From positions 333,132-397,131 of the forward strand of contig NZ_SJPY01000001.1 in the NCBI RefSeq assembly GCF_007860185.1: a stretch of DNA of 64,000 bases, given 5' to 3'. Shown here piece by piece: positions 21,433-42,140 of this stretch. How positions within the stretch are numbered: the first letter of the stretch is position 1; every line of letters begins with the position of its first letter. The notes under the pieces were generated by a model. It did no database searches, was not told where the DNA came from, and saw only the letters and a list, made by a program, of their open reading frames with translations. Source of the DNA: Novipirellula aureliae. GTDB taxonomy: Bacteria > Planctomycetota > Planctomycetia > Pirellulales > Pirellulaceae. The position numbers and the translations under genes are program-made.

Positions 21433-21500
21433 TTCATTAGGTAGTTTCGAATGAAAGAACGATATTATACAATGGAACCGCTGACTTGTCGCTGTTACAT
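21433..21500. promoter_or_regulatory. LysR box and promoter region, copy A
   Basis: An LTTR-type dyad TTCATT (21433-21438), an 11-bp spacer and AATGAA (21450-21455), followed by ATTATACAATGGAACCG (21464-21480) and ACTTGTCGCTGTTA. The same order and spacing recur at 42075-42140. TATACAAT may serve as a -10 element. The MFS start codon is about 113 bp beyond the dyad. Confidence 0.75.
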
Positions 21501-21567
21501 TCTAGCCTGGATGATTTATTAGTCACGGTTGCAACAATGCACTTCCTTCCTTTGCAAGGCCTACCGG

Positions 21568-22884
21568 ATGCGAATTCCCGCGCGAGCGATTTTGGTTGCG
21601 GCAACGTTCATGTTGTCCGTATTGCTGTACGTTGATCGCGTCTGCATCTCGGCAGCCAAACAGGACGTGACACGTGATTTGTCGCTCAGCGATCAACAGA
21701 TGGGCTGGGTCTTTGCCGCCTTCTCGCTCGGCTATGCGTTGTTCCAAACCCCCGCCGGTTCCCTTGCGGATCGCTTTGGTCCACGGCGTGTTTTGGCAAG
21801 CATTGTGGCCATTTGGTCTGTCTTTACAGGACTGACGGCGGCAGCCGGTTCCTTGGCGTCAATGCTCGTCATCCGATTTTTATTCGGCGCGGGCGAGGCA
21901 GGTGCGTTTCCAGGCATGGCACGGGCGATGTACTCGTGGATTCCCATGCAGGAACGGGGACTGGTCCAGGGGATCAATTTCTCCGGATCAAGGATTGGTG
22001 CTGCCGTAACGTTGCCGCTCGTCGCCGGTTTGATTGCCCAATTTGGTTGGCGTCCAACGTTTGTAATCTTGATGATTGTCGGGTTCATTTGGTCCGTTGC
22101 TTGGTTGCTTTACTTTCGCGATGACCCCGCGGACGCAAAATGGCTTAGTGAGAGGGAGAGTGAATACATTTTGGCCAATCGGCAAAGCGACTCGCCAGTA
22201 ACGAATCCGGCATCGGACCCGGCATCGAATCCGGCATCGGATTCATTGACGACGCCAGCGACCGATGCCGAGTCTTTGCTGAAAACGATCCTTCGCTCGG
22301 GCAATGTTCGTGCTTTGTGTTTGCAGTACTTCGCTTCTAACTTTATTTTCTTCTTCGGTTTGACGTGGTTTTTCCCACAATTGATGACGCGTTATGGATT
22401 GACTGGGATGCAGGCCAGTTTGTTTACCGCGGTGCCGATGATGTTTGGCGCGTTTGGCAATTGGGCGGCCGGTTGGTGGGTCGATCGTTTGTACTCTCAA
22501 GACAAATGGCGTTTGTCACGTCGATTGCCTGCAGCAACCGGCTTTGCGTTGGCGGGAATCGGGATCGTCGGCAGCGCCTATGCATCCACGCCACTATCGT
22601 CGTCGATGTGGTTTAGTTTGTGCATCTTTGGTGCCGACATGACGCTGTCCCCCTCCTGGAGCACGTGCGTGGATATTGGGAAATCGCGGGCGGGTGTGGT
22701 CTCGGGGATGATGAATATGGCCGGAAACGTTGGCGCCTTCGTCACGTCGCTTGCGTTTCCTTATCTGCTGGAGTGGACCGGTTCTCCACTTCCCTTTTTC
22801 TACATCGCGGCAGTATTAAACTTGCTCGCGATTGGCATGTGGTTTCGTATCGATCCGACCGTGCCGCTACAGGAGTCTGCTTGA
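21568..22884 (+). CDS. MFS transporter of the anion:cation symporter type
   Basis: A permease of 438 residues with 12 predicted helices and a central loop rich in small residues (about 205-235, repeated NPASDPASNPASD). The start region (VLLYVDRVCISAAKQDVTRDL) and the loop motif PAGSLADRFGPRR are characteristic of the ACS family, which imports hexuronates, aldonates and related acids with H+ or Na+. The ATG at 21568 is chosen; 13 residues upstream lack family character. Its stop overlaps the next start. As first gene of the operon it probably imports the sugar acid. Confidence 0.85.
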   Translation: MRIPARAILVAATFMLSVLLYVDRVCISAAKQDVTRDLSLSDQQMGWVFAAFSLGYALFQTPAGSLADRFGPRRVLASIVAIWSVFTGLTAAAGSLASMLVIRFLFGAGEAGAFPGMARAMYSWIPMQERGLVQGINFSGSRIGAAVTLPLVAGLIAQFGWRPTFVILMIVGFIWSVAWLLYFRDDPADAKWLSERESEYILANRQSDSPVTNPASDPASNPASDSLTTPATDAESLLKTILRSGNVRALCLQYFASNFIFFFGLTWFFPQLMTRYGLTGMQASLFTAVPMMFGAFGNWAAGWWVDRLYSQDKWRLSRRLPAATGFALAGIGIVGSAYASTPLSSSMWFSLCIFGADMTLSPSWSTCVDIGKSRAGVVSGMMNMAGNVGAFVTSLAFPYLLEWTGSPLPFFYIAAVLNLLAIGMWFRIDPTVPLQESA

Positions 22885-24704
22885 TGAATGCTTCGCTTGA
22901 ATCACCTTCGCCGTCAATCGAAAACCAGCGAGAACCAGCGAACCGGCGCGGGTTGTTGATCGGGGCAGGCTACTTTAGCGATTTCCATTTGGATGCTTGG
23001 CAACGGTGTAAACGGGCGAACATCGTGGCGGTTTGCGATCTGGATGCAACCAAGGCAAACGCCGCTGCGAAAAAATACGGCATCGAGCGATCCGTGACCG
23101 ACATCGCCGAAGCTCTCGCTTTGCCCGACATCGATTTCATTGATGTTGCGACGGGACCGACAAACCGATTCGAATTGATTCAGCAAGTCGTGCCACGCCG
23201 ATTACCAATCATTTGCCAGAAACCTTTGGCAAACGACTTTGCCGAGGCAACCAAGATTTTGGATCGGGTGCGATCGGCCGATGCCCCATTCATGGTTCAC
23301 GAAAACTTTCGTTTCCAGCCTTGGTATCGTGAAATCAAGCGATTGCTCGCTAAAGGGGTAATCGGTCACCGAGTACACACGATGACGATGCGAACACGGA
23401 TGGGAGACGGTTGGGGGCCAGACGCCTATCTAGGTCGTCAACCTTATTTCCGTACGATGCCGCGATTGCTGATCCACGAAACGGGTGTGCATTTTATCGA
23501 CACCTTTCGATTTTTGGCTGGCGAAGTGACCGAGTGTTCCGCAACAACCCGCCGCATCAATGACGTCATTGTCGGCGAGGATGCTTGCGTGTTGACGCTG
23601 CAAATGGAAAAGGGAGTGACGGCGATCTGGGATGCAAATCGCTACAACGAATTCAGTGGTAGCGATGCCGGTCACGATCCGAGATACACGTTTGGTCAGT
23701 TCCAAGTCGAGGCCGATGGAGGCACGATTTCGTTGGCAACCGATGGAACGATCACGATTGATCCACTCGGAAAGCCAGCGTACCAACACGCCTACACGCC
23801 TTCGCGGCATGGCTTTGCAGGCGATTGTGTGCTGGCATGCCAAGAGCATTTCTTAGACGTTCTCGATAACCGAGTCGCCTGCGAAACCTCGGCGGATGAA
23901 TACCAAAAAACGCTGTTAGTGGTCGAAGCGGCCTACGAATCGGCACAACGTCATCGACCCGTTGTTAGCCGTTTTGGCATTAGCCATAGCGCCGATGATC
24001 TTGATGTGAAAACCGGAGCTAACGCCCAAACGACTCAGGAAAGCGGTGCTGCTCGGCTTGGCCGCGTGATTGACCTCACTCGCCCATTGACGAGCACCGT
24101 GCCTGGCGTTCAGGTGGAACCGTGCAAAACGATCGAGAAGGACGGTTGGAATGCGACGACGCTGTCCCTCTATTCGCACTGCGGCACGCACATCGATGCA
24201 CCACGGCATTTTCTACCAAACGGTAAAACGCTCGATGCCCTCGATTTGTCGGTCTGCTCGGGTGCGGCCCGGTTGGTGAATCTGGCTGATACCCCCCCGC
24301 GCCACTTGATCTCCGTTGCCGATGTCATCGACTCGATCGGCGACGTTTTCCCAGACGATCGTTTGATTTTTCGAACGGATTGGCATCGTCGTTTCGGCAC
24401 CTCTGCCTACCGTGACGAGCTACCACGAATCTCGATCGAGTTGGCACATTGGCTTGTTGAGAAACAAGTGGCGCTGATCGGAGTCGAGCCACCTTCCGTT
24501 GCGGATGTCAACAACAAGGTCGAATTGACCGACGTGCATCAAACACTGTTTCGTGGTGGAGTCACGATCGTAGAAGGCTTGGTCAATTTAGATCAACTAC
24601 CACCATCCGAGTTTCAATTCATCGCGGTTCCTCTGAACATCGTTGGCGGTGATGGGTGTCCCGTACGCGCGATCGCAATCGTGAACGACGAGGTATCGGG
24701 ATGA
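22884..24704 (+). CDS. Gfo/Idh/MocA oxidoreductase fused to a cyclase-family hydrolase
   Basis: A 606-residue two-enzyme protein. Residues about 20-380 are a Gfo/Idh/MocA dehydrogenase (LLIGAGYFSDFH nucleotide motif, ICQKPLAND in place of the usual EKP, HETGVHFIDTFRFLAG). Residues about 392-606 are a PF04199 cyclase/kynurenine-formamidase-like metal hydrolase with the signature SHCGTHIDAPRHF. The ATG at 22884 overlaps the MFS stop; the stop overlaps the OtnK start. In tetronate pathways a dehydrogenase makes the 3-oxo acid for OtnK; here this half could do that, while the hydrolase half could open a lactone. Both roles are inferred. Confidence 0.8.
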   Translation: MNASLESPSPSIENQREPANRRGLLIGAGYFSDFHLDAWQRCKRANIVAVCDLDATKANAAAKKYGIERSVTDIAEALALPDIDFIDVATGPTNRFELIQQVVPRRLPIICQKPLANDFAEATKILDRVRSADAPFMVHENFRFQPWYREIKRLLAKGVIGHRVHTMTMRTRMGDGWGPDAYLGRQPYFRTMPRLLIHETGVHFIDTFRFLAGEVTECSATTRRINDVIVGEDACVLTLQMEKGVTAIWDANRYNEFSGSDAGHDPRYTFGQFQVEADGGTISLATDGTITIDPLGKPAYQHAYTPSRHGFAGDCVLACQEHFLDVLDNRVACETSADEYQKTLLVVEAAYESAQRHRPVVSRFGISHSADDLDVKTGANAQTTQESGAARLGRVIDLTRPLTSTVPGVQVEPCKTIEKDGWNATTLSLYSHCGTHIDAPRHFLPNGKTLDALDLSVCSGAARLVNLADTPPRHLISVADVIDSIGDVFPDDRLIFRTDWHRRFGTSAYRDELPRISIELAHWLVEKQVALIGVEPPSVADVNNKVELTDVHQTLFRGGVTIVEGLVNLDQLPPSEFQFIAVPLNIVGGDGCPVRAIAIVNDEVSG

Positions 24705-25951
24705 CGTCGCAGAGACTCGGATGTATTGCAGACGATTACACCGGAGCGACCGATTTATGTTCGATGCTAGTTCGTAGCGGGCGTCGAGTGGTTCAGTGCT
24801 TCGGGGTTCCCGAATTGGCTAGCGGCCAGAACCTGAGTGATGCGGATGCCGTTGTGGTGGCGCTGAAGTCACGGTCGATTCCCGCGCCGGAAGCGGTTGA
24901 CGAATCGTTGTCGGCACTACGGTTTCTTCAATCATGGGGTGGGGATCGATTTTTCTTCAAGTACTGCTCGACCTTTGATTCAACCAAGCAAGGCAATATC
25001 GGACCCGTTGCTGACGCATTGGGCACCGCACTTGACGTGGACCGGTTGATGTTCTGTCCGGCCTTTCCTGAGAATGGACGCACCGTTCACTGCGGTCATT
25101 TGTTTGTCGACGGCGTGCCACTCAGCGAAAGCGGGATGCGTAACCATCCGCTCAACCCGATGACTGACAGTAACCTCGTGCGAGTCTTGCAGGCTCAGAC
25201 ATCTCATTCGGTCGGTTGGCTCTCGACTCACGGCAAATCTGCCAATCCGAATGCATCGCGGATCATTGTTGATGCGATCACGGATGATGATCTGCGTGCC
25301 GTTGCTGATATCGCCAGCTCGGAGCGGTTGTTAACGGGTGGTTCTGCAATCGCTCGCTACTGGGCCGACGCCGCCCAAATCCGCTGCTCTGGCGGACCGA
25401 CGGAGACACGATCGACGGATCACGACAAGGGTCCCTGCGTAATACTGGCGGGCAGTTGTTCCGATGCGACTCGCACACAGGTCGCCGAGTTTGAGCAAAC
25501 GCATCCGGTTTTGCACCTCAACGTTGCCGATACCGCCAACATCGAATCAATCGCTGGCATGGCACTGAAATGGTGTTCAAATCATTGGAATCGCCAAGGC
25601 GATCAGCCGCCCGTGGTTTTGATCAGTTCGGCTGAGAATTCGCAAGCGGTCGATGCGGCTCGCCAGCAGTGGGGCGAGCGAGAGGCGGCCGAGAGAACCG
25701 AAGCGATTTTCGCATTGATCTCCGTTGGCCTCCGAGAGCAAGGGATCACGCGTCTCATCGTCGCTGGCGGTGAAACCTCTGGAACGGTCGTCGCTGCGCT
25801 GAAGATTCCCGCTGTACGGATTGGACGCGAGATCGCACCCGGCGTGCCATGGGTAACCTCGATCGGCGAGCCTACCATTTCGTTGGCTTTAAAATCTGGC
25901 AATTTTGGTGGCAAGAGTTTCTTCTTCGATGCACTGGAGACATCCCCATGA
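24701..25951 (+). CDS. Four-carbon acid sugar kinase (OtnK/DtnK-like)
   Basis: A 416-residue DUF1537-family kinase: N-terminal domain starting LGCIADDYTGATDLC, which is the family signature, and a C-terminal nucleotide-binding domain with VILAGSCSDATRTQ and the LIVAGGETSGTVVAAL motif. OtnK-type enzymes phosphorylate 3-oxo-tetronates, DtnK phosphorylates D-threonate, at the 4-hydroxyl. Length is normal. It overlaps both neighbours by 4 bp, so the operon is tightly coupled. The order kinase then OtnC-type aldolase supports a tetronate-like substrate, though five- and six-carbon acids also use this family. Confidence 0.85.
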   Translation: MTSQRLGCIADDYTGATDLCSMLVRSGRRVVQCFGVPELASGQNLSDADAVVVALKSRSIPAPEAVDESLSALRFLQSWGGDRFFFKYCSTFDSTKQGNIGPVADALGTALDVDRLMFCPAFPENGRTVHCGHLFVDGVPLSESGMRNHPLNPMTDSNLVRVLQAQTSHSVGWLSTHGKSANPNASRIIVDAITDDDLRAVADIASSERLLTGGSAIARYWADAAQIRCSGGPTETRSTDHDKGPCVILAGSCSDATRTQVAEFEQTHPVLHLNVADTANIESIAGMALKWCSNHWNRQGDQPPVVLISSAENSQAVDAARQQWGEREAAERTEAIFALISVGLREQGITRLIVAGGETSGTVVAALKIPAVRIGREIAPGVPWVTSIGEPTISLALKSGNFGGKSFFFDALETSP

Positions 25952-26562
25952 GTGAAACTGAACTTCGCGAACGGATGGCCGAACATGGCCGATCGCTATA
26001 TGAGCGTGGCTTGACGGCCGGCAGTTCCGGCAACATCAGCGTCCGATTGCCCGATGGCATCTTGGTAACGCCAACCAATTGCTGTTTGGGTAGACTCGAT
26101 CCCGATGAAATCTCGAGGTTGGACTCGGTCGGAAATCTGCTCTCGGGCAAACGACCCTCGAAAGAGTCGTTTTTGCATTTGGCGTATTACAACGCGCGTT
26201 CAAAGGAACAAGCCGTCGTCCATTTGCATTCGACATGGTCGGTTGCTGTCAGTTGTTTGGCAGACATCGATCCTGAGAACGTCATCCCTCCAATCACGGC
26301 TTACTTTGTAATGCGAGTGGGAAAACTACCACTCGTTCCATTCTTTCCACCTGGTGATGAGCAATTGGCTGAAGCCGTCGCATCGGTAGCCAAGTCATCG
26401 CGAGGTGCGTTGTTGGCTAACCACGGCCCCGTCATTGGGGCAACCGACTTGGATCAAGCCGTGTATGCAATCGAAGAACTAGAGGAAACAGCCAAGTTGT
26501 TCTTAATGCTTCGCGGTTTACCGACTCGATACCTTACCGACGAACAGGCTGGGAAACTGTAG
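25948..26562 (+). CDS. Class II aldolase/OtnC-like 3-oxo-tetronate 4-phosphate decarboxylase
   Basis: A 204-residue class II aldolase/adducin-fold enzyme: TAGSSGNISVRLPDG substrate loop, KPSKESFLH-like proton-donor region (RPSKESFLHLAYY), zinc histidines in VVHLHSTWSVAVS, and LLANHGPVIGATDL. OtnC enzymes decarboxylate 3-oxo-tetronate 4-phosphate to dihydroxyacetone phosphate. The ATG overlaps the kinase stop by 4 bp. It is the last gene of the operon. A 23-bp stretch of its coding sequence (26267-26289) is found again at 39922-39944 behind nifV. Confidence 0.85.
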   Translation: MSETELRERMAEHGRSLYERGLTAGSSGNISVRLPDGILVTPTNCCLGRLDPDEISRLDSVGNLLSGKRPSKESFLHLAYYNARSKEQAVVHLHSTWSVAVSCLADIDPENVIPPITAYFVMRVGKLPLVPFFPPGDEQLAEAVASVAKSSRGALLANHGPVIGATDLDQAVYAIEELEETAKLFLMLRGLPTRYLTDEQAGKL

Positions 26563-26714
26563 AGTCTCTTGATTCTCACTCAGGCCGCCCAACGGATGGA
26601 TCGAACCGATTACGAATCGGCGTCAACATCATCAACGCGTAAGAATCCGTTATTGATTGTCAAGACTCGCCCAGCAATCTGTGCGACGAGGACTTGATTG
26701 ACCCTTGCCGTTTC

Positions 26715-27500
26715 CTATTTCGCCGAAACAAACCCGTACGCCTCGAATACTTTCGTGGCATCGTCCGATTCTAGATACTCGTAAAACTCTCTCGCCGATG
26801 GATTCATAGCCACACGTTTTAGCAGTAGCAAAGGATAGACGATGGCTTCGTGCGATTGAGGATCAAATTCGTAAACCACTTCGACGTCGGTAGCACCTAT
26901 TACGTCGCTTGCATAGACAATCCCTGCTTCCGCTTCGCCTCGCTGCACATAAGTCAGTGTCACTCGTGCATCGCTGCCGCGTGCGAATTTGTTTTCGTGT
27001 GTTAGCTGTTCGTACATCCCAAGCTTTAGCAAAGCCTGTTCCGCGTACATTCCGACGGGCACATTTTCCCCGGCGATTGCAACTCGGTGAATGTTGTTCG
27101 CCATCAAATCGCTCGGTTGTTTGACGTTTGCTGGGTTTCCTTTGCGCACTATCAACACGATACGATTGGTCAGTAGATTGGTGCTCTCTTCGACAGGCTC
27201 GGATTGAACAATTGCATCGGCCCATTGCTGATTCGCTGAAACAAAAACATCCACCGGAGCCCCCGTGACAATTTGGCGAGCAAGATTATTGGACGGCCCG
27301 CTACTAATGACGACGCCGACTCCCGTTCGCAGTTCAAATTGGTACGCGATCTGTTTGATCGCCTCGTTCGTACTTGCGGCCACTAGCACCATGATCTCGT
27401 TGCCTTCGGACCGGTTCGTTTCCGCTAGGTCACACCCAAGAGCGAGTAGACAGAAAATCGCAACCATCGCACCCGCAAAACATCGTTTCACTGCTGTCAT
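26715..27500 (-). CDS. modA: Molybdate ABC transporter substrate-binding lipoprotein
   Basis: A 261-residue type II periplasmic binding protein. The lipobox LLALGC puts the lipidated cysteine at about residue 23. Typical ModA segments follow: VLVAASTNEAIKQIA, GVGVVISSGPSNNLARQI (oxyanion-binding serine), GAPVDVFVSANQQWAD, and a C-terminal EFYEYLESDDA block. No modB or modC is near, so the permease must be encoded elsewhere or the gene was carried alone. It sits divergent from nifA, fitting molybdenum supply for nitrogenase. Tungstate or another oxyanion cannot be excluded. Confidence 0.83.
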   Translation of the reverse strand: MTAVKRCFAGAMVAIFCLLALGCDLAETNRSEGNEIMVLVAASTNEAIKQIAYQFELRTGVGVVISSGPSNNLARQIVTGAPVDVFVSANQQWADAIVQSEPVEESTNLLTNRIVLIVRKGNPANVKQPSDLMANNIHRVAIAGENVPVGMYAEQALLKLGMYEQLTHENKFARGSDARVTLTYVQRGEAEAGIVYASDVIGATDVEVVYEFDPQSHEAIVYPLLLLKRVAMNPSAREFYEYLESDDATKVFEAYGFVSAK

Positions 27501-27799: not shown

Positions 27800-29413
27800 A
27801 TGGAAGTGCTTACAAATTGCGCAGGTGAAGATTGTCCGATGCACGATGATTTGGCAAGTGCCGTATCATGCGCGGAACTTCGCTATCGACGCGAAGCCGA
27901 ACGCAAAGCCTTGCTCCAAATCGCTCGTTTGCTCTCCGAGCGACCGGGACAAAACCAAACCCTTTTGGAAATCGTCGCTTGTATCGAAGAACATTTAGGG
28001 ATGATACATGTCACGGTGATGATGGTTTCCGTCGATGGGCTGCGTCTCGAACTCGAAGCCACCAAGGAGCCAAGCACGAGAAACCACACAAAATTGGCGT
28101 ATGAACGAGGTGAGGGCGTCATCGGCCGAGTCCAGCAATCCGGTCAAGCTGAAATTGTTAGTCCCATTGGGGACGACCCAAATTTTCGCAATCGGATTCA
28201 CCAACGCACGCCACAACATCTCGACGCACACGCATTCATCTGCGTTCCCATTTCTGTCGAAGGTGAAGCGTTCGGTACGCTATCGGCGGACGTTCTGTCC
28301 CGAGATGAAGATGAGTTGCGAGGCGCAGCAGAGACACTCGGCATCGTCGCTAGCATGATCGCATACGATGTCAACGGCCGGCGAACCCGTCGGCTCGAGC
28401 GTGAAATGTTGGAACTGCAAAATCTAGAGCTGCGAGATTCCCTGGGTGAGCGGTTTCGCCCGGGCAACATGATTGGCAGCTCGAGTCCGATGCGACAGCT
28501 CTACACCCAAATTCAACAGGTTTCGTCAAGCGACACAACGGTATTAATTCGCGGCGAATCGGGAACGGGGAAAGAATTGGTTGCGACCGCGATTCACTGC
28601 ACCAGCAGCCGAGCAAAGAAACCAATCATCAAAGTGAACTGCGCGGCGCTCAACGAAAACCTGCTTGAAAGTGAACTATTCGGACACGAAAAGGGATCCT
28701 TCACGGGAGCTGTCCAGAAGCGAAATGGTCGCATCGAAGAGGCCGAAGGCGGGACATTGTTCCTCGATGAGGTGGGTGAATTTTCGCCGATCATCCAAGT
28801 AAAGCTATTGCGAGTATTACAGGAACGCCAATATGAACGCGTGGGTAGTAGTGTCACGCGCGACGCCAACGTCAGGATTGTCGCGGCAACCAATCGGGAC
28901 TTAGAGGAAGCGGTCCGCGCCGGACGGTTTCGCCAAGATTTGTACTATCGAATCAATGTTTTCCCCATTCATTTGCCGCCACTTCGCAAGCGTCCTGACG
29001 ATATCCTGCTATTGGCCAATCACTTCGTCGCCAAATTTTCCAAGCAAATGGGTCGACCGATCAAACGAATCAGTACACCCGCGATCAATACTTTGATGAT
29101 GTACCATTGGCCCGGCAATGTTCGCGAACTTGAAAACTGCATCGAACACGCCGTGCTACTAGCGCGAGAAGGAGTGATTCACAGTCACAATTTTCCACCC
29201 ACGATCCGAATGCCGGACGATAAGACCACCAGCACAGCGGTATGTTTTTCGTTAAGCACGCGAGTCCGTGCGCTCGAACGCGACATGATCAGTGATGCCC
29301 TAAAGCGATCGGAGGGCAACATGGCCGCCGCGGCTCGAGAGCTAGGGATCAGCTCAAGAATGATTCGGTACAAGGTGCAAAATTTGGGGATCGATTGGAA
29401 CTCAGAGGCATAA
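27800..29413 (+). CDS. nifA: NifA-type sigma-54 activator of nitrogen fixation
   Basis: A 537-residue enhancer-binding protein: N-terminal GAF domain (about 45-195), AAA+ domain (about 230-465) with Walker A GESGTGKE, sigma-54 contact loop GSFTGA (the usual GAFTGA with a serine), Walker B GGTLFLDEVGE and the arginine-finger region, then a Fis-type helix-turn-helix (about 490-535, NMAAAARELGISSRMIRYKV). The linker before the HTH lacks the paired cysteines that make rhizobial NifA directly oxygen-sensitive, and no nifL is present, so redox or nitrogen sensing is probably by the GAF domain or other proteins. It lies directly upstream of nifH. Confidence 0.88.
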   Translation: MEVLTNCAGEDCPMHDDLASAVSCAELRYRREAERKALLQIARLLSERPGQNQTLLEIVACIEEHLGMIHVTVMMVSVDGLRLELEATKEPSTRNHTKLAYERGEGVIGRVQQSGQAEIVSPIGDDPNFRNRIHQRTPQHLDAHAFICVPISVEGEAFGTLSADVLSRDEDELRGAAETLGIVASMIAYDVNGRRTRRLEREMLELQNLELRDSLGERFRPGNMIGSSSPMRQLYTQIQQVSSSDTTVLIRGESGTGKELVATAIHCTSSRAKKPIIKVNCAALNENLLESELFGHEKGSFTGAVQKRNGRIEEAEGGTLFLDEVGEFSPIIQVKLLRVLQERQYERVGSSVTRDANVRIVAATNRDLEEAVRAGRFRQDLYYRINVFPIHLPPLRKRPDDILLLANHFVAKFSKQMGRPIKRISTPAINTLMMYHWPGNVRELENCIEHAVLLAREGVIHSHNFPPTIRMPDDKTTSTAVCFSLSTRVRALERDMISDALKRSEGNMAAAARELGISSRMIRYKVQNLGIDWNSEA

Positions 29414-29483
29414 CGTTGCGGCAAATCCTCCGCTCGATTGCTTAAGTGGCTTCAAAAACAATTTCTAGCAACCAAGCAACAAT

Positions 29484-29513
29484 ATTGTCGCTTCTCTGCT
29501 TTCGGCCGACAAT
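29484..29513. promoter_or_regulatory. ATTGTCG inverted repeat after nifA
   Basis: Arms ATTGTCG and CGACAAT with a 16-bp centre, 70 bp after the nifA stop. It contains TGT and ACA triplets 20 bp apart instead of the canonical NifA TGT-N10-ACA spacing. It may be a weak terminator, or an operator with two-turn spacing upstream of the nifH promoters. No canonical NifA site was found between 29414 and 29896. Confidence 0.35.
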
Positions 29514-29701
29514 TATGTCACTTTGCTTTGGTGGGCTGGTCTTGGGAGCCGTGTCTTCCGCAAACAAGATCAATCGCAAGTTTCTAGCCCTTAGCGTTTT
29601 CACACCACGCAGCAAGGCTACATTCCTGTCGCTTTCTCTCTCTGCTTGCCATCGTAGCATACGGAGCTGACGCCGAGAAAAGCCAAGAATTCCCAACTTC
29701 A

Positions 29702-29717
29702 TTGGCATGGCACTGGC
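29702..29717 (+). promoter_or_regulatory. Candidate sigma-54 promoter P1 for nifH
   Basis: TTGGCATGGCACTGGC has the invariant GG and GC separated by exactly 10 bp and matches the -24 element well (TTGGCA), the -12 element less well (TGGC for TTGC). It would give a leader of about 170 nt before nifH. Confidence 0.5.
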
Positions 29718-29801
29718 GCTCGACGTTTCCTTGAAAAAACACGTCTCTGATGCAATGACTTGCGTTTGCGTAACGATCGATTGGCGTATCCCCAAACACT
29801 T

Positions 29802-29817
29802 TTGGTACGACCTTCGC
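29802..29817 (+). promoter_or_regulatory. Candidate sigma-54 promoter P2 for nifH
   Basis: TTGGTACGACCTTCGC also has GG-N10-GC, with a good -24 element apart from T for C and TCGC for TTGC at -12. It would give a leader of about 70 nt, a more usual length. Only one of P1 and P2 may be real. Confidence 0.45.
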
Positions 29818-29821
29818 TTGA

Positions 29822-30730
<909 letters not shown>

Positions 30731-30745
30731 CAAGGCAGTCTCACT

Positions 30746-34188: not shown

Positions 34189-34225
34189 CTTGTGATGAAT
34201 AAAATTGCGGATGCAAGATAAAACC

Positions 34226-35620
34226 ATGACCACCACCGACATCCTTGAAGGCCGTAAGGCGCATATCCACGAAAAGGGTGCTGTTCCATTCAACATCGCC
34301 TGCGAAAAGCAGAGCGTTGCCGGATCGGTCAGCCAACGTGCCTGCGTCTTCTGTGGATCACGAGTCGTATTGTACCCGATTGCCGATGCGTTGCATGTCA
34401 TCCACGGTCCGATCGGATGTGCAGCGTACACTTGGGACATTCGAGGTGCATGGTCGAGCGGCCCGCAATTGCATCGAATGAGTTTCTCAACCGACTTGCA
34501 GGAGAAGGATGTCATCTATGGCGGTGAGAAGAAGCTGTATCAAGCTCTCGTCGAACTGATCGAACATTATCGCCCCAAAGCTGCGTTCATTTACAGTACT
34601 TGTATCGTCGGTTTGATCGGTGATGACGTCGAAGCCATTTGTCGCCGTATCTCAGCGGAAACCGGCGTCGAAACGATCCCTGTTCATTCCGAAGGATTCA
34701 AAGGATCGAAAAAGGACGGCTATTCGGCGGCCTGCAACGCATTGAATCAACTCGTCGGAACAGGCGACACGAATGGCATAAGTCCTCTGTCGATCAACAT
34801 TCTTGGCGACTTCAACATCGCCGGTGAAACCTGGGTCATTAAAGATTATTACGAAAGAATGGGCGTGGAGGTGGTCGCAACGATAACCGGCGACGGGCGA
34901 GTCGATGACATCCGCCGCTGCCACGGTGCGGCATTGAACGTTGTGCAGTGTTCTGGATCGATGACTCAGCTTGCAACAATGATGAAAGAGAAATACGGCA
35001 TTCCCATCATTCGGGCTTCCTACTTCGGCATCGAAGACATGAGCAAGGCGTTGTACGACGTCGCCGAATATTTGAATGACAAAACGGTCATGAGAAACAC
35101 ACAGAACTTGGTCCGTGATGAAGTCTCGAAACTCGTTCCTCAGCTTCGCAAATACAAGAAAGACTTGAAAGGAAAACGGGCCGCCGTTTACACAGGAGGA
35201 GCGTTCAAGGCTTTGTCGATGATCCGCTCCCTTCGCACTCTGGGCATGAAGACGGTGATCGCCGGGTCACAGACCGGAAACCAACAAGACTACGCACGCC
35301 TGCAAGAACTCAGCGATGAAGGGACGATCATCCTGGACGACACCAACCCGCTTGAGTTGGCAAAGTTCCTCGAAGAAAAGAAGGCGGACTTGCTGATCGG
35401 TGGCGTAAAGGAACGTCCAATCGCTTACAAACTCGGGCTCGGATTTTGTGACCACAACCACGAACGCAAAATCGGTCTGGCTGGTTTCGAGGGGATGTTG
35501 AACTTTGCCAAGGAGGTTCACGGAACCGTGACCAGTCCGGTTTGGAAATTAGCGGCACTCCACCGCAAAGATGTGTGGTCGGCTACAAGCCGCCAACACA
35601 GGCAAGGAGACGAATCATGA
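34226..35620 (+). CDS. nifE: FeMo-co scaffold protein NifE
   Basis: NifE pairs with NifN as the scaffold on which NifB-co is completed to FeMo-co. It resembles NifD but with its own residues: QRACVFCGSRVVLYPIADAL, HGPIGCAAYTWDIRGA, STCIVGLIGDDVEAI, and the conserved VQCSGSM cysteine region. Length is 464 residues from the ATG at 34226; in-frame TTG (34205) and ATG (34211) are alternatives, and no start has a strong ribosome site. The stop overlaps the nifN start. Confidence 0.94.
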   Translation: MTTTDILEGRKAHIHEKGAVPFNIACEKQSVAGSVSQRACVFCGSRVVLYPIADALHVIHGPIGCAAYTWDIRGAWSSGPQLHRMSFSTDLQEKDVIYGGEKKLYQALVELIEHYRPKAAFIYSTCIVGLIGDDVEAICRRISAETGVETIPVHSEGFKGSKKDGYSAACNALNQLVGTGDTNGISPLSINILGDFNIAGETWVIKDYYERMGVEVVATITGDGRVDDIRRCHGAALNVVQCSGSMTQLATMMKEKYGIPIIRASYFGIEDMSKALYDVAEYLNDKTVMRNTQNLVRDEVSKLVPQLRKYKKDLKGKRAAVYTGGAFKALSMIRSLRTLGMKTVIAGSQTGNQQDYARLQELSDEGTIILDDTNPLELAKFLEEKKADLLIGGVKERPIAYKLGLGFCDHNHERKIGLAGFEGMLNFAKEVHGTVTSPVWKLAALHRKDVWSATSRQHRQGDES

Positions 35621-36984
35621 TCGCGGCACTTCCGGTTTCTGAGCACTTCACAGCGACTCGTAACGCTTGCAAACTTTGCACACCACTCGGGGCTTGCTTA
35701 GCGTTCAGCGGAATCGAAGGAGCGATGCCGTTCCTACACGGTTCGCAAGGTTGTTCGACGTACATTCGCCGCTACATGATTAGCCACTTTCGCGAACCGA
35801 TGGACATCGCGTCGTCGAACTTCGGCGAGCACACCGCGATCTTCGGCGGTGGCAAGAACATCCGATTGGGGTTAGCGAATGTGATTGAAGGCTACCACCC
35901 GACGATGATCGGCATTGCGACAACATGCCTATCCGAAACAATCGGTGACGACGTCAAAATGTTTCTGCATGAGTTCCGCAAGGATCACCAAGGCGAGGCA
36001 CTTCCGCATTTGGTGCACGTCGCGACACCCAGCTACACAGGAACTCATGCGACGGGTTATCACGACGCCATCCGCGCGATCGTGGACGTGCTCGCTCAGC
36101 CTGGGCCTACGATCAAAGGTGTCGTGAACCTGATTCCTGGGATGCTTTCGCCAGCCGATTTGCGCTGGTTGAAAGACGTCGTTACCGATTTCGGACTCCA
36201 GCCTATTTTGCTGCCCGACTATTCGGATCGACTTGATGGCGGAACGTGGTCTGAATACAAGAAGTTGCCGCCTGGCGGAACAACAATCCAACAAGCCGCG
36301 CGGATGGGACAAGCCGAAGCAACGTTGGAGTTTGGGTTTACGACCAACGAGGCAACCAGTGCCGGAACGCTGCTTGAGAAAAAATTCGGGGTTCCTTGTT
36401 CTCACATGGGCGTTCCGATGGGCGTCGCTCTGTCGGATGCCTTGTTCGACAAACTATCGCAAATTAGCGGTCGCCCGGTTCCGGTGAAATACCAGGGCCG
36501 TCGTGGGCGGTTGATTGATTCGTTCATCGACGCACACAAGTATGTGATCAACAAACGAGTGGTCGTGTTCGGGGAAGAGGACTTGGTCGTCGGCATGACC
36601 GCGATGATGGCCGAGGTGGGACTCAAACCCGTGCTTTGCTCATCAGGCGGCAAGAGCAAGAAACTGGGCGAATCGATTCGCGCGGTTGCACCGGAGATTG
36701 CGGACGATTGCGAGATTCACGAAGGGGTCGATTTTGAAGAGATCGCAGAACATGCGAAACAGCTCGAACCTGATTTGCTGGTCGGCAACAGCAAAGGATA
36801 CAAGCTGGCTCGCGAGTTGAACGTGCCACTGATGCGAGTCGGTTTTCCGATCCATGATCGCATCGGCGGGGCGCGAGTGTTGCACGTCGGTTACGACGGA
36901 GCACAAACTCGCTTCGATTCGATCGCCAACGGTTTGCTGGAAATGCGTCAGCACGATTCGGACGTTGGATTTACCTATTTTTAA
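35617..36984 (+). CDS. nifN: FeMo-co scaffold protein NifN
   Basis: Partner of NifE, related to NifK: ACKLCTPLGACLAFSGIEG, HGSQGCSTYIRRYMISHFRE, TTCLSETIGDDV, ATPSYTGTHATGYHDAI and GFPIHDRIGGARVLHVGY. The ATG at 35617, with AAGGAGA at 35603-35609 and a 4-bp overlap with nifE, is clearly the start (455 residues) although the frame is open further up. A cysteine-rich N-terminus similar to NifK suggests bound Fe-S. Confidence 0.94.
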   Translation: MIAALPVSEHFTATRNACKLCTPLGACLAFSGIEGAMPFLHGSQGCSTYIRRYMISHFREPMDIASSNFGEHTAIFGGGKNIRLGLANVIEGYHPTMIGIATTCLSETIGDDVKMFLHEFRKDHQGEALPHLVHVATPSYTGTHATGYHDAIRAIVDVLAQPGPTIKGVVNLIPGMLSPADLRWLKDVVTDFGLQPILLPDYSDRLDGGTWSEYKKLPPGGTTIQQAARMGQAEATLEFGFTTNEATSAGTLLEKKFGVPCSHMGVPMGVALSDALFDKLSQISGRPVPVKYQGRRGRLIDSFIDAHKYVINKRVVVFGEEDLVVGMTAMMAEVGLKPVLCSSGGKSKKLGESIRAVAPEIADDCEIHEGVDFEEIAEHAKQLEPDLLVGNSKGYKLARELNVPLMRVGFPIHDRIGGARVLHVGYDGAQTRFDSIANGLLEMRQHDSDVGFTYF

Positions 36985-37002
36985 CTCGGAGAATAAATCG
37001 AC

Positions 37003-38301
37003 ATGACCATTGACACCTCATTGCACCCTTGCTTTAGCCCGAGTGCGAAGCACAAGTTCGGACGGGTTCATTTGCCTGTCGCTCCGAAGTGCAATATTAG
37101 TTGCAACTTTTGCAATCGCAAGTTCGACTGTGCCAACGAAAGTCGCCCGGGCGTCACCAGCACAGTGCTCTCTCCTGCTCAATCGGTTGCCTATTTGAAT
37201 AAAGTCAAAGCATTAGTCGAATGTCCGATTACTGTCGTCGGCATCGCTGGACCAGGCGACCCGTTCGCCAACCCGGATGAGACGATGGAGACGCTGCGGT
37301 TGGCTCGTGAATCGGACCCGAACATCATCCTGTGCATCGCCTCGAACGGTTTGAACTTGGAACCTTATGTCGAGGAATTAGCGGAACTAAAAACAAGTCA
37401 TGTGACCGTTACCGTCAATGCAGTTGACCCGAAGATTGGTGCAAAAATCTATCGTTGGATTCGTCCTCAGCCAAACCGAGTCTATCGGGGCGAGGACGGT
37501 GCGAAGTATCTGCTCGATTGCCAACGTGCATCGATCACTGCCCTGAAACGATGCGGAATCACGGTAAAAATTAACACGATCGTGATGCCGGGGGTGAACG
37601 ATCATCACATTACCGAGATCACCAAAGCGATGGCCGAGCTTGGGGTGGATGTTCAGAACTGTATGGCACTCGTGCCCGTCCAAGGAACGCCGTTTGAGGA
37701 TTTGGATGCACCGGATCCGAAGTTGATGATGGAAATTCGCAAAGACATTCGCCAAGTGCTACCGCAAATGTCGCATTGTGCTAGGTGTCGAGCCGACGCG
37801 GTGGGACTTCTCGGGGAAGCGAATTCGGATTTGATTCAAGAAGCGTTAATCGAAGCGGCCACCCGTCCGCTAAATCCAACCGACGAGCGGCCTTGTGTTG
37901 CCGTCGCTTCACTCGAAGGGATGTTGGTAAACCAGCATCTTGGGGAGTCTGAACAATTATGGATATTCGAGCGAACGGACGATGGCGAGTTCGAGATGAC
38001 CGAGACACGACCGACGCCGCTTCCAGGAAGTGGATCACGACGTTGGTCTGAACTTGCCGAACGATTGAGCGATTGCCGCGCGGTGCTTGCGGCACACGCG
38101 GGTCCATCGCCCAAGACAGCACTCGCGAAAGCAGGTATCCGGGTGATGGTTGCCGAGGGACTAATCGACGAGGCACTTGAATGGGTCTACGCAGGCCAAA
38201 AACCTCGAATGCCACTGCGAGTCAAGGAACCGGGGGCGGGCTGTGACAGCGACGGCGTCGGTTGCGGACCCTGCAGCGGGCCAGGGACGGGGTGCGGCTA
38301 A
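37003..38301 (+). CDS. nifB: NifB: radical-SAM FeMo-co core synthase with NifX-like C-terminus
   Basis: NifB makes NifB-co, the [8Fe-9S-C] precursor. The radical-SAM motif is C30-C34-C37 (PKCNISCNFCNRKFDC), with further conserved ExRPG and AGPGDPFAN segments and the pair CARCRADAVG. Residues about 298-400 form a NifX/NafY-like domain (CVAVASLEGMLVNQHLGES), so a carrier function is fused on. The last 25 residues are rich in Cys and Gly (VGCGPCSGPGTGCG). 432 residues; starts 18 bp after nifN with CGGAGAA before the ATG. Confidence 0.96.
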   Translation: MTIDTSLHPCFSPSAKHKFGRVHLPVAPKCNISCNFCNRKFDCANESRPGVTSTVLSPAQSVAYLNKVKALVECPITVVGIAGPGDPFANPDETMETLRLARESDPNIILCIASNGLNLEPYVEELAELKTSHVTVTVNAVDPKIGAKIYRWIRPQPNRVYRGEDGAKYLLDCQRASITALKRCGITVKINTIVMPGVNDHHITEITKAMAELGVDVQNCMALVPVQGTPFEDLDAPDPKLMMEIRKDIRQVLPQMSHCARCRADAVGLLGEANSDLIQEALIEAATRPLNPTDERPCVAVASLEGMLVNQHLGESEQLWIFERTDDGEFEMTETRPTPLPGSGSRRWSELAERLSDCRAVLAAHAGPSPKTALAKAGIRVMVAEGLIDEALEWVYAGQKPRMPLRVKEPGAGCDSDGVGCGPCSGPGTGCG

Positions 38302-38311
38302 AAGGGTTGGT

Positions 38312-38337
38312 GTGCAGACTTTGGCCGCCGTCTGCAC
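38312..38337. other. Hairpin between nifB and the ferredoxin gene
   Basis: Perfect 8-bp arms GTGCAGAC and GTCTGCAC around a 10-base loop, starting 10 bp after the nifB stop. No T-run follows, so it is more likely an RNA-stability or processing element than a terminator. Confidence 0.6.
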
Positions 38338-38387
38338 GTGTGTTTGAAAGGCGGCTGAAGCCTGGACTCCGACTCAAGGAACTAACA

Positions 38388-38690
38388 ATGGAAAAACCAC
38401 AGTATCACATTCTTGTTTGCAGTAGTGCACGCGCTAGTGGTGAGCTGAAGGGTGTTTGTCACAAGAAAGGCGCATCAGATTTGCCGCAGTATCTCGAGAA
38501 CGAAATACTTGATCGCGGGATTGATGCATTGGTCTCGACGACCAGTTGTTTCAAGGTGTGCAACAAAGGCCCAGTGCTAACCGTCTATCCCAACGGATGG
38601 TGGTATGGCGAAATCGATGAAGAGAAAATCGACGAAATTCTCGATTCACTCGAAGAGGACAAACCGGCCGAAGCTCTGTTAATGGCATGA
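38388..38690 (+). CDS. Thioredoxin-like [2Fe-2S] ferredoxin
   Basis: A protein of 100 residues with cysteines at C11, C24, C54 and C58 (ILVCSSARASGE, KGVCHKKG, TSCFKVCNKGP), the pattern of the thioredoxin-fold ferredoxins of Clostridium pasteurianum and Azotobacter, which are associated with nitrogenase. The tail GWWYGEIDEEKIDEIL is also typical. The ATG at 38388 has CAAGGA upstream; an open frame further up lacks ferredoxin character. Position between nifB and nifV suggests it donates electrons for NifB or NifH, or serves in FeMo-co assembly. Confidence 0.85.
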   Translation: MEKPQYHILVCSSARASGELKGVCHKKGASDLPQYLENEILDRGIDALVSTTSCFKVCNKGPVLTVYPNGWWYGEIDEEKIDEILDSLEEDKPAEALLMA

Positions 38691-38771
38691 TGCAACATTC
38701 TCTGACAGCCTTTATTGGAGTCTAGACGCTAGCCGATTCCAGCACCGTCGGAACGATTGGAAATCCTAAAC

Positions 38772-39887
38772 ATGAACAACGAACTTTACCTTATCGACAG
38801 CACGCTTCGTGATGGCGAACAACGTGCGGACGTTGCGTTTACTCATGGGCAACGTGAAACCATTGCGTTGATGCTCAACTCGCTCGGCATCGCTGAAATC
38901 GAAGTCGGCACGCCCGCGGCGGGCCGCGATGAAATCGAATCGATTCGCCGCATCGTTTCGCTCGGTCTTGATTGCCGATTGACAGGTTGGTGTCGAGCCT
39001 TGTCCATGGACCTTGAGGCTGCTGAAAGTGCAAACCTCCGCTCCGTTCATTTCTCATTACCTGTTTCGCGCATCTTGCTTTCGACACTCGGTCGGGATCG
39101 GTCGTGGGTCTTTGGGCAACTAAGCCAATTGCTCGCCAATGCGCTGAATCGATTTGATTTTGTATCCGTCGGATTGCAAGACGCATCACGAACCGACACC
39201 CGTTTTCTAGTTGACTTGGCATGTAGCGCGGCCATCCATGGTGCCAACCGAGTTCGTATAGCGGACACCGTTGGCGTTTGGGATCCGCTAAGGACTTGGG
39301 CCGTCGTCGGCCGAGTTCGCGAAGCGGTTCCCGATATTCTGTTGGGTTTTCATGGTCACAACGACCTTGGGATGGCCACCGCCAATGCCTTGGCTGCCCT
39401 GCAAGCCGGTGCGGATTGCGTCGACGTCACGGTCAATGGACTCGGCGAACGTGCAGGCAACGCGGCACTTGAAGAAGTCGCGATGGCATTGAAAGTCATC
39501 TTGAAAGAAAACATCGGTTTAAGAACCAAGAAACTCGCTGAGCTGTGTGACTTTGTCGCTAGCGCCAGCGGCATTCCGATCGCGGCTCACAAACCAATTG
39601 TCGGCAAGCAAGTCTTTCGACATGAATCGGGAATCCATGTGCGCGCCATGCAGAAGGATCGTCGCAGTTATGAGCCCTTCGCTCCGTCGGAAGTCGGCCA
39701 GTCGGATTCGGTAACGGTGTTAGGAAAGCATTCCGGCCGCGCCGCGCTGCACCAAGCGTTTGCCGAATCAGGCATTGAGCTAAACACGTCACAAGCCGAC
39801 CGATTGCTTGATGCGGTCCGCCAGCGATCGAGTGAGCTAGGTCGCTCGCTAACTCCCATCGAAGTGTTGCGACTGTACGAGACTTGA
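38772..39887 (+). CDS. nifV: Homocitrate synthase
   Basis: NifV condenses acetyl-CoA with 2-oxoglutarate to homocitrate, the organic ligand of FeMo-co. The 371-residue TIM-barrel shows IDSTLRDGEQRADVAF at the start, GLQDASRTD, metal histidines in GFHGHNDLGMATANAL, NGLGERAGNAALEEV and HESGIHVRAM. Compared with leucine-pathway homologues it lacks the long regulatory C-terminus. The ATG at 38772 is preferred over the one at 38757. Confidence 0.94.
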   Translation: MNNELYLIDSTLRDGEQRADVAFTHGQRETIALMLNSLGIAEIEVGTPAAGRDEIESIRRIVSLGLDCRLTGWCRALSMDLEAAESANLRSVHFSLPVSRILLSTLGRDRSWVFGQLSQLLANALNRFDFVSVGLQDASRTDTRFLVDLACSAAIHGANRVRIADTVGVWDPLRTWAVVGRVREAVPDILLGFHGHNDLGMATANALAALQAGADCVDVTVNGLGERAGNAALEEVAMALKVILKENIGLRTKKLAELCDFVASASGIPIAAHKPIVGKQVFRHESGIHVRAMQKDRRSYEPFAPSEVGQSDSVTVLGKHSGRAALHQAFAESGIELNTSQADRLLDAVRQRSSELGRSLTPIEVLRLYET

Positions 39888-40125: not shown

Positions 40126-41799
40126 ATGGCGGATTGGATTAGATCGAATGACGTTTTAGGGACGACGAACCGAGGCAACCCCTGTGAGTCAGGACTATGC
40201 ACATTGTGCCGCGCTGACTGCAAAGGTAAATGTGAAACATGGCTTGGGTCCATGGTTGGACGCAAACTGCTTTATCCACGTGACTTTGGCTTGGTCACCG
40301 CCGGCAGCGCTAATACAACTCATGTCGGTGTCAATTACAACGGCTTGCGTATCCAAGGTGGTGTTTACGGTGCCAAAGGTTTACCACCGGGATTGACGAC
40401 ATCAGCCGACGATTGTGTCTTCCCAAATGTTTCGGTCGAAACGGAATTTGGAAACAAGGTCAAGACGAAAGCTCGCGTGCCGTTGATGACGGGCGCACTG
40501 GGGTCGACGATTATCGCCGCGAAGTACTGGGAATCGTTTGCGACGGGTGCAGCGTTGGTTGGATTCCCTATCGTTGTTGGCGAAAATGTCGTCGGAGTCG
40601 ATCGCCAAAGCGTGATCAACAATGGCCGAGTCACCAAAGCACCGGAGCTGGATCGACGCATTGATACTTTCCTGCGTTACTACGATGGGTATGGTTCCAT
40701 CATCGTGCAGCTAAACGTCGAAGACACGCGAAATGGTGTTGCCGAGTATGTTGTCGACAAGTACGGCGACAAGGTCACGATCGAATTGAAGTGGGGCCAG
40801 GGTGCGAAGAATATCGGTGGTGAGATTCAAGTCAGTAGCTATGACTATGCAATGTTCTTAAAGGACCGAGGGTATGTGGTTGATCCTGACCCTTCGCTTC
40901 CGGACGTCAAAGATGCGTTTGATCGCAATGCAATCCGTGCCTTTGCTCGTCATAGCCGACTGGGTTATACCGACCTCACCAGTGAAGCCGCCGTACGCGA
41001 GAACTTCATGCAATCGGTCGACTATTTGCGAAGCCTCGGTTACCAACGAGTAACACTAAAGACTGGATCGTACGGAATGGAAGGCTTAGCGATGGCAATC
41101 AAATATGCCAGTGAAGCGGAGCTCGATTTGTTGACGATTGACGGTTCAGGAGGCGGGACCGGAATGAGCCCATGGAACATGATGGAAACGTGGGGAGTGC
41201 CATCCGTTCTGCTACACGCCAAAGCAAACCAGTATGGGGAAATGCTCGCGAATGCGGGAAAGAATGTCGTTGACATGGCGTTTGCTGGCGGACTTGCCCG
41301 TGAAGATCATATCTTCAAAGCACTGGCCCTCGGTGCACCGTTCACCAAGTTGATTTGCATGGGCCGGGCGTTAATGATTCCCGGCTTCGTAGGCTCCAAT
41401 GTCGAAGGTGTTCTCAAAGGAGAGGACCGCGAAGCGATTGTGGATGGAGAGTTGGTCCGCCGCGATACCGTTCACGGCACCTGGGACAAGCTGCCCGCAA
41501 CCGTCCGAGAAATTGGACATTCGGTGGATGAGATTTTCGCTGGCTACCATGAAGTGCAGGATCGGTTGGGTAAGGACGAGATGAAGAACGTTCCGTATGG
41601 TGCAATCGCGATCTGGACCCTAGCAGACAAACTTGCTGCGGGCCTTCAACAGCTGATGGCCGGCGCTCGCAAGTTCTCGCTCAACCAGATCGATCGAAGC
41701 GACCTCGTATCCGCGAATCGTGAGACGGAGGAAGAAACGGGCATTCCGTTTATCACGGATGTCGATGACGACAAAGCCAGAAAGATCTTGGCGTCGTAG
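40126..41799 (+). CDS. Glutamate-synthase-like FMN protein with N-terminal cysteine cluster
   Basis: A 557-residue protein of the FMN-binding glutamate synthase family (GltB central domain): LMTGALGSTIIAAKYWES, LKWGQGAKNIGGEI, LTIDGSGGGTGMSPWNMMETWG, VDMAFAGGLARED. There is no amidotransferase domain. The N-terminus has five cysteines, C20, C25, C28, C32 and C36 (NPCESGLCTLCRADCKGKC), likely an Fe-S site. The usual 3Fe-4S loop after the barrel is reduced to a single cysteine (LICMGRALMIPGFVG). Its place behind nifV suggests assimilation of fixed ammonium or a linked redox step; true glutamate synthase activity is unproven. Confidence 0.75.
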   Translation: MADWIRSNDVLGTTNRGNPCESGLCTLCRADCKGKCETWLGSMVGRKLLYPRDFGLVTAGSANTTHVGVNYNGLRIQGGVYGAKGLPPGLTTSADDCVFPNVSVETEFGNKVKTKARVPLMTGALGSTIIAAKYWESFATGAALVGFPIVVGENVVGVDRQSVINNGRVTKAPELDRRIDTFLRYYDGYGSIIVQLNVEDTRNGVAEYVVDKYGDKVTIELKWGQGAKNIGGEIQVSSYDYAMFLKDRGYVVDPDPSLPDVKDAFDRNAIRAFARHSRLGYTDLTSEAAVRENFMQSVDYLRSLGYQRVTLKTGSYGMEGLAMAIKYASEAELDLLTIDGSGGGTGMSPWNMMETWGVPSVLLHAKANQYGEMLANAGKNVVDMAFAGGLAREDHIFKALALGAPFTKLICMGRALMIPGFVGSNVEGVLKGEDREAIVDGELVRRDTVHGTWDKLPATVREIGHSVDEIFAGYHEVQDRLGKDEMKNVPYGAIAIWTLADKLAAGLQQLMAGARKFSLNQIDRSDLVSANRETEEETGIPFITDVDDDKARKILAS

Positions 41800-42074
41800 A
41801 CGACCGGCTACTTCCACGAACGAATCACTCCATCGATGGTTGCCAATCGAATCGATTCGAGTAGGAACGCCAGTTTGCGAAACAATCGTTGCAGCAACTT
41901 CGATCAAGGTGGCGTCCGTCGACAATGACAGAGCTGACCATGGAAAAGAGCATGGTAATCAAAGGCAACTTGATGGGTTCATCGTCTAATCCTGGCCGAG
42001 AAATATGCCAACGACAATCGAATTTCGATCCGCTGATATTCTAGAAGATACGACGGCGACCACCCGCCAAATCA
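41800..42074. other. Spacer after the glutamate-synthase-like gene
   Basis: About 275 bp without a convincing gene. Short frames on both strands (for example minus-strand residues STDATLIEVAATIVSQTGV ending inside the upstream gene) look like possible remains but cannot be assigned. The LysR-type control region starts at 42075. Confidence 0.4.
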
Positions 42075-42140
42075 TTCATTAGGCGTTTCCGAATAAAAAC
42101 ACAAAATTATACAATGGAACCGGTCACTTGTTGCTGATAT
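42075..42140 (+). promoter_or_regulatory. LysR box and promoter region, copy B
   Basis: TTCATT (42075-42080), an 11-bp spacer and AATAAA (42092-42097), then ATTATACAATGGAACCG and ACTTGTTGCTGATA with the same spacing as at 21433-21500. Roughly 47 of 65 bases agree, with the 17-bp core identical. The first gene starts 104 bp past the dyad, against 113 bp in copy A. Regulation by the LysR protein encoded at 20513-21430 is the natural inference. Confidence 0.72.

Follow-up and report, generated by a model that had tools for sequence, protein, structure and literature searches.

A LysR-type control region repeated across the nif genes of Novipirellula aureliae: probable joint control of a split catabolic operon

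Introduction

Why should two intergenic regions, one on either side of a block of nitrogen-fixation (nif) genes, carry nearly the same control sequence? The question is raised by a 64,000-nucleotide stretch of Novipirellula aureliae DNA (contig NZ_SJPY01000001.1, positions 333,132 to 397,131), called here the window. Region A lies between lysR, encoding a LysR-type regulator, and a divergent catabolic operon that begins with an MFS transporter gene. Region B lies 20.6 kb away, before the gene of an ABM protein, and has no lysR gene beside it. A sequence-only reading of the window had suggested that one LysR protein would govern the genes behind both regions, that nif lies between these two units as if inserted into one catabolic locus, and that they would make up an undescribed sugar-acid regulon.

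I propose that the two units are halves of what was a single operon, cut by nif, and that both are probably run by one LysR protein through two operators. To the explanation as a whole (split ancestral operon, region B as second operator, co-control by LysR, and a tetronate pathway) I give a probability of about three in four. The locus looks like a caught case of an operon surviving a cut, with the unbroken form still present in relatives and the split form here. The second operator is defined, so the proposal can be tested.

Two copies of one control region

Aligned gap-free over 69 bp, regions A and B share the same base at 54 positions. Each contains an outer inverted repeat (TTCATT-N11-AATGAA in A, with AATAAA as the second arm in B), followed by the same 17-bp core, ATTATACAATGGAACCG, and then by ACTTGTCGCTG in A or ACTTGTTGCTG in B (Table 1). 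The offsets from element to element are equal. In these respects the sequence-only reading was accurate, with every element where it had been placed. Its claim of a similar distance to the first gene calls for a minor correction, since 67 nt separate the putative -10 from the gene start in A (21568) and 58 nt in B (42201). In both regions a putative -35, TGGAAC, falls within the core, 17 nt before the -10. To call the element a LysR site and TGGAAC a -35 is my own reading and not the output of a tool.

Chance does not produce such a likeness, and that explanation can be regarded as refuted. The runner-up among 69-bp matches in the window, on both strands, agrees at 33 positions, 20 shuffled windows peaked at 33-36, and the element is present in six other genomes. 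When up to 3 mismatches are allowed, the window has two copies of the core where chance would give 0.10, and one of 100 shuffles had two. In the whole genome (7,267,653 bases) the perfect core occurs at these two places only. With up to 3 mismatches there are ten hits, the eight imperfect ones all with 3, and the reversed pattern, taken as a control, gives seven.

Outside the element, the likeness stops. The flanks of region B (41800-42074 and 42144-42260) show none to the lysR and MFS flanks of A by local alignment, and remnants of lysR or the MFS gene, looked for by the same method as signs of a bigger duplication around B, were not detected. All the elements and spacings have been kept while the flanks have been lost, which argues that B is used. 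Nor is B a fresh copy, because A differs from B about as much as it does from its orthologue in another genus (57 of 69 positions identical in genome G045).

These figures bear on a different account of region B, in which it no longer functions and is left over from a duplicated locus, while the second half of the operon is read through from the nif block, following nitrogen status. The account can draw on the region before the ABM gene, where no terminator-like site was reported on the forward strand (41780-42260; both reported sites are on the minus strand), and on gene direction, which is the same for every named gene from nifA through the glycosidase-like one. But divergence near the level found between genera should have brought decay in the absence of selection, and region B retains every element. 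I consider read-through unlikely.

The minus strand of region A carries a putative lysR promoter, overlapping the core. The corresponding strand of B has GCAACA at the -35 and no lysR gene downstream. It does retain TATAAT (42106-42134), pointing back at the nif block. If active, this would give an antisense RNA to the neighboring Glu_synthase-domain gene.

One operon in the relatives

Proteins of the operon were sought in 149 genomes of the family, this one counted. The fused Gfo/Idh-cyclase protein was found at E<=1e-60 in 26 of them and the dehydrogenase at E<=1e-90 in 30. The loci compared comprise 20 stretches from 19 other genomes and the best 80 of 308 relatives, these 80 from named genomes, 95 in all after five duplicates among the 100 were removed.

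OtnC and the dehydrogenase, whose genes lie on opposite sides of nif here, occur together in 24 other loci. In 21 of these the two are on one strand and 52-466 bp apart, so that the flanking genes are to be read as one operon. Four genomes (G045, G091, G140 and G111) share the order MFS, Gfo/Idh-cyclase, OtnK, OtnC, ABM, dehydrogenase, glycosidase-like gene, unbroken from MFS to dehydrogenase; lysR adjoins the operon in all but G091, where it lies elsewhere. The ABM gene in these four begins 18-55 bp past the end of the OtnC match, which leaves no room for a second operator. Genes from both halves of the window's operon have their closest likeness in the same three genomes, G045, G091 and G140. 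Among the loci read, only the window has nif between OtnC and ABM.

The sequence-only reading had offered relatives without nif at this place as a check, to fail if the two units lay far apart; they prove to be contiguous. Its picture of two units of one locus survives to that extent, while its picture of two operons does not. A pair of ancestral operons with an operator apiece was considered but is not supported, since the relatives have a single operon in which another operator would not fit. Comparison thus points to an ancestral operon with lysR divergent, a single control region, and the seven genes in the order just given, within which, between OtnC and ABM, the nif-modA block now sits. 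The same comparison makes region B the derived one of the two control regions here, and it reads as a second operator before the severed half.

Some loci have fared differently. That of G126 is without OtnK or OtnC, and in G147 the dehydrogenase is beside a LysR gene at one place, with MFS and Gfo/Idh-cyclase at another. In G087, a genus mate, OtnC has been lost together with parts of its neighbors: the OtnK match ends at residue 291 and, about 40 bp on, the ABM match begins at residue 57 (L052 8141-9190). The G087 operon is thus degraded at almost the same place as the window's is split.

The LysR protein and its site

Six of 241 genomes of the family, this one (with two) among them, contain the core at one mismatch or fewer. 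It stands upstream of the operon's MFS gene in G045, G091, G140 and G153, and it occurs once, with one mismatch, in G130. Degenerate cores hold the same place in G087 (3 mismatches) and G111. In five genomes, counting this one, lysR and the MFS gene flank the site. When the eight operon-linked sites are aligned, the outer repeat TTCATT-N11-AATGAA (which varies in some rows) accompanies the core, and the -10 position TA...T is invariant in all eight. The dyad and the promoter-overlapping element are therefore both conserved across relatives.

A profile built from these eight sites, whose scores on them are in-sample, reports two sites in this genome, at 70.6 and 66.1 bits. No third site that would widen the regulon was reported at E<=10, with 150 of the 611 first-look candidates scored, so that weak sites could escape. 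In G045, G091, G140, G087 and G111 the profile finds a single site before the MFS gene (47.9-68.9 bits); in G111 it finds two others at 12.3 bits. It reports none in G037, which also has no match to the LysR protein at E<=1e-50.

The LysR gene of the window is the only match to itself in the genome at E<=1e-50. One LysR and two reported operators fit one regulon, so the idea that a single regulator runs both units stands in this respect, with binding as the inferred part. Its recognition region is shared at 16-18 of 21 residues by the proteins of G045, G091, G140 and G087; for seven LysR proteins whose loci lack the core, the figure is 8-11 of 21. The operon of G091 has an exact core, yet the LysR protein that matches best there (66%) is encoded on a different contig. 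This is a likely precedent for action in trans.

What weighs against the proposal should be set out in one place. The promoter scan reported a forward promoter in neither A nor B, both being weak by consensus. Three of the 24 loci (L145, L167 and L188) have the dehydrogenase on the MFS side of the operon. No ABM was detected in 13 of the 32 loci with OtnK or OtnC, part of them on short contigs. The window contains no tRNA, and no repeat joins the ends of 26400-42300, which leaves no visible trace of how the insertion and the duplication took place. In G111 the core is present while the LysR recognition region is just 9/21 identical, and helix and operator are thus not perfectly correlated. The profile finds an extra site in G045 (29.8 bits, E 3e-6; core with one mismatch) upstream of another LysR gene, and other LysR proteins may thus read the core as well. 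Finally, LysR binding at both regions is a prediction from sequence, as are the identity of the substrate and the parts played by the dehydrogenase and the ABM protein.

The last two genomes might suggest that the element is bound by some other regulator, or by several LysR proteins, and that its tie to this one is incidental. It would then be odd for five genomes to have the site in the gap that separates lysR from the MFS gene, and for it to go unfound in G037, which is without this LysR. LysR sites take the form T-N11-A, and TTCATT-N11-AATGAA fits it. Such an incidental tie seems to me quite improbable. As for the surroundings of the extra core in G045 (L110, C3:103753), a DUF5060-like gene of the glycosidase type, so identified by eye, flanks it on one side and the different LysR gene on the other.

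A pathway for C4 sugar acids

OtnK and OtnC, both over their curated cut-offs (Table 1), assign the operon to C4 sugar-acid (tetronate) breakdown. The regulon can hence no longer be called undescribed in its chemistry, because a pathway class with 3-oxo-tetronate kinase and decarboxylase is known. For tetronates (L-threonate, D-erythronate), an excerpt of PMC12540250 gives, with reference to Zhang et al. 2016, a four-step route by way of LtnD, OtnI, OtnK and OtnC to dihydroxyacetone phosphate; it also names a three-step route that omits OtnI and uses a different OtnC domain. OtnI (NF043033) exceeds its cut-off of 325 in none of six genomes, the best score in this one being 110 bits, and no LtnD-type dehydrogenase is named by Pfam or NCBIfam among the operon's genes, to which that search was confined.

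What might take their place? ABM occurs in 19 of the 32 loci with OtnK or OtnC and in none of the 63 without, although the 95 loci are related and so not independent. The dehydrogenase/ABM pair stands beside OtnK/OtnC in many planctomycete loci and in one metagenome-assembled genome (MAG) of the Woeseiaceae (L156). The ABM protein resembles LsrG, an enzyme that acts on a phosphorylated C5 compound and shifts its keto group. A role like OtnI's for ABM, and like LtnD's for the dehydrogenase, are then the natural guesses, and by this analogy the two would perform the first two steps, making them a candidate enzyme pair for C4 sugar-acid use.

The model runs as follows. The LysR protein would bind both copies of the control region, with the outer repeat for recognition and the core over the -35 for activation, and a sugar acid or its lactone would switch on both halves together. 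The Gfo/Idh-cyclase protein would take a sugar through a lactone to a C4 sugar acid, the dehydrogenase would oxidize C2 of the acid, the ABM protein would move the keto group from C2 to C3, OtnK would phosphorylate the product, and OtnC would decarboxylate it to dihydroxyacetone phosphate. If the pathway is right, nif stands between its first two steps and its last two, which would be uncoupled were it not for region B; region B re-couples them.

A related route was tried and set aside. Apiosidases and the Collagen_bind_2 domain had prompted the idea of apiose, but OiaK of the 3-oxo-isoapionate pathway (NF042436) scores 89.9 bits against a cut-off of 700, and no DUF4038 match is listed at E<=5.

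Elsewhere, Bacteroidota loci cluster MFS, Gfo/Idh, cyclase, and isopropylmalate-dehydrogenase-family genes without OtnK/OtnC, perhaps as part of a wider sugar or lactone pathway. Gfo/Idh and cyclase are separate genes in L139 and L171. Six MAG loci of Acidobacteriota have the fused protein at about 60% identity. The loci behind these observations are L116-L121, L139, L143, L171 and L177.

Which came first, nif or the operon?

The nif genes are native to the genus. By RpoB, the closest genomes are the genus mates G087 (94.9%) and G037 (94.5%), with G045, G091 and G140 at 85.5-86.0%, and nifD agrees (89% and 95% in the two genus mates). The dehydrogenase disagrees, with 88% identity to G045 and G091, 79% to G037 and 65% to G087. 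This would reflect either exchange of the operon with a Rhodopirellula-like lineage or the loss of paralogues.

Two operons were broken at the left junction, as modA is cut from modBC and OtnC from ABM. The modBC genes are now at C1:633931-635261, 273 kb from modA, so that in this likely diazotroph the operon for molybdate transport is split; the two genus mates have modA-modB-modC contiguous and beside nifA. A stretch before the ABM gene (41800-42074) aligns with the modBC stretch of G037 at a score of 28, the shuffle maximum being 25. I treat this as chance: it spans 36 columns, three of 500 shuffles reach it, and the genome's own modBC scores 19.

Nor are the surroundings of one piece. Beyond the operon genes, comparison of the flanks with G037, G087, G045 and G013 (counting at least 45% identity) gives one partial match, at 45%. 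G037, G087 and G013 all conserve the mfd block (13.5-18.0 kb), and all conserve the flagellar block (50.4-56.4 kb), but in G037 the two are about 4 Mb apart, so that the window from 18 to 50 kb is a mosaic. No integrase or transposase is among the 11 named genes of the nif block, though no search was aimed at them.

The nif genes do lie between the two halves, as the sequence-only reading had it, but its notion of nif inserted into a catabolic locus becomes one of two possible orders, given a native nif, a discordant operon, and a severed modA. The reverse order, that the exchanged operon arrived where nif already lay and underwent its splitting and rearrangement at that place, has close to an even chance, and it is compatible with two operators. 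It would account for nifD following the genus while the dehydrogenase goes against RpoB and the operon is closest to Rhodopirellula, and it would accommodate the cut between modA and modBC. To its disadvantage, both halves retain their genes, order and direction, for which a single insertion of nif-modA is the simplest explanation. Region B most likely came from duplication of the locus, or of the control region, with the surrounding copy then lost.

A fuller story, which I hold only tentatively, is that the nif block landed in a working operon, the operator was copied before the stranded half to make a two-unit regulon, and the stranded dehydrogenase and isomerase are unrelated replacements for LtnD and OtnI, in a new variant of the tetronate pathway that starts from a lactone.

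Features of the locus

The genes left of nif are tightly packed, with overlapping starts and stops. Past the right half, the metallo-beta-lactamase-fold gene has no counterpart found in the 20 relatives' loci read gene by gene. The glycosidase-like protein is without the N-terminal 440-500 or so residues of the 1423-residue open reading frame (ORF) in G045 (L050 12289-16560). Within the nif block, nifH, nifE and nifB are over their NCBIfam cut-offs, while nifA, nifD, nifK, nifN and nifV are under theirs. The nifD-nifK gap (32638-32743) has a tandem 39-bp repeat with perfect 24-bp inverted arms, and the nifH-nifD gap (30803-30930) has a 27-bp inverted pair, both possibly hairpins for RNA processing or attenuation.

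Table 1. Positions of genes and control elements in the window
Feature	Position	Strand	Basis or remark
lysR, LysR-type regulator, 305 aa	20513..21430	-	Pfam HTH_1, LysR_substrate; divergent from MFS operon
Region A outer inverted repeat, TTCATT-N11-AATGAA	21433..21455	+	arms 21433-21438 and 21450-21455; proposed LysR recognition site
Region A 17-bp core	21464..21480	+	proposed activation site, overlaps -35
Putative lysR promoter, GCGACA, 17 nt, TATAAT	21464..21492	-	promoter scan, 10/12
Putative forward promoter A, TGGAAC, 17 nt, TACATT	21473..21501	+	by eye
ACTTGTCGCTG of region A	21484..21494		follows core
MFS transporter, galactonate-transporter-like	21568..22884	+	Pfam MFS_1; TIGR00893 251.6 bits, under cut-off 395
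Fused Gfo/Idh/MocA dehydrogenase and cyclase-family hydrolase	22884..24704	+	Pfam; ATGA overlap with MFS
OtnK, 3-oxo-tetronate kinase	24656..25951	+	NF043035 472.6 bits, cut-off 350; longest ORF, start provisional
OtnC	25948..26562	+	NF043034 308.4 bits, cut-off 250
Left junction, OtnC end meets modA end	26563..26714		in relatives ABM follows OtnC and modBC follows modA
modA, severed from modBC	26715..27500	-	TIGR01256
nifA, nifH, D, K, E, N, B, ferredoxin, nifV	27800..39887	+	NCBIfam best or near-best matches
Glutamate-synthase-domain protein, right end of nif block	40126..41799	+	Pfam Glu_synthase
Region B outer inverted repeat, TTCATT-N11-AATAAA	42075..42097	+	sequence; arms 42075-42080 and 42092-42097
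Region B 17-bp core	42106..42122	+	identical to A
Putative forward promoter B, TGGAAC, 17 nt, TATGTT	42115..42143	+	by eye
ACTTGTTGCTG of region B	42126..42136		follows core
ABM protein, LsrG-like; proposed 2-oxo to 3-oxo tetronate isomerase	42201..42503	+	Pfam ABM; best PDB match LsrG 2gff
Isopropylmalate/tartrate dehydrogenase-family enzyme; proposed tetronate 2-dehydrogenase	42508..43617	+	Pfam Iso_dh; best PDB match tartrate dehydrogenase 3flk
Glycosidase-like protein, secreted-looking (signal-like start)	43645..46494	+	DUF5060, Collagen_bind_2, Kelch
Metallo-beta-lactamase-fold protein	46522..47352	+	Pfam; possibly same unit as glycosidase-like gene

Comparison with known systems

In the textbook arrangement, a LysR-type activator is divergent from its target operon and acts through a recognition site and an activation site. 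Region A is like it, with a divergent lysR, an inverted repeat, an element over the putative -35, and the lysR promoter on the other strand. The difference is the second copy of the control region, 20.6 kb off, without lysR, before the severed half. A LysR-controlled tetronate operon in planctomycetes was not found in titles and the openings of abstracts, a coverage that leaves out most subscription journals. The erythronate system of Brucella has a regulator of the DeoR type, according to an excerpt of PMC10580937, where the one here is of the LysR type.

The nif genes, for their part, are likewise those of the genus: PMC12628686, in an excerpt, describes nifHDK clusters conserved in three Novipirellula strains, including CA13. 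What sets the present block apart is modA standing away from modBC and the position inside a catabolic operon; the main text of PMC12628686 mentions neither modA nor LysR.

With the tetronate pathway the operon has OtnK and OtnC in common, and dihydroxyacetone phosphate would again be the end product. It differs in the isopropylmalate-dehydrogenase-family enzyme and LsrG-like ABM protein that stand in place of LtnD and OtnI, and in the extra Gfo/Idh-cyclase fusion.

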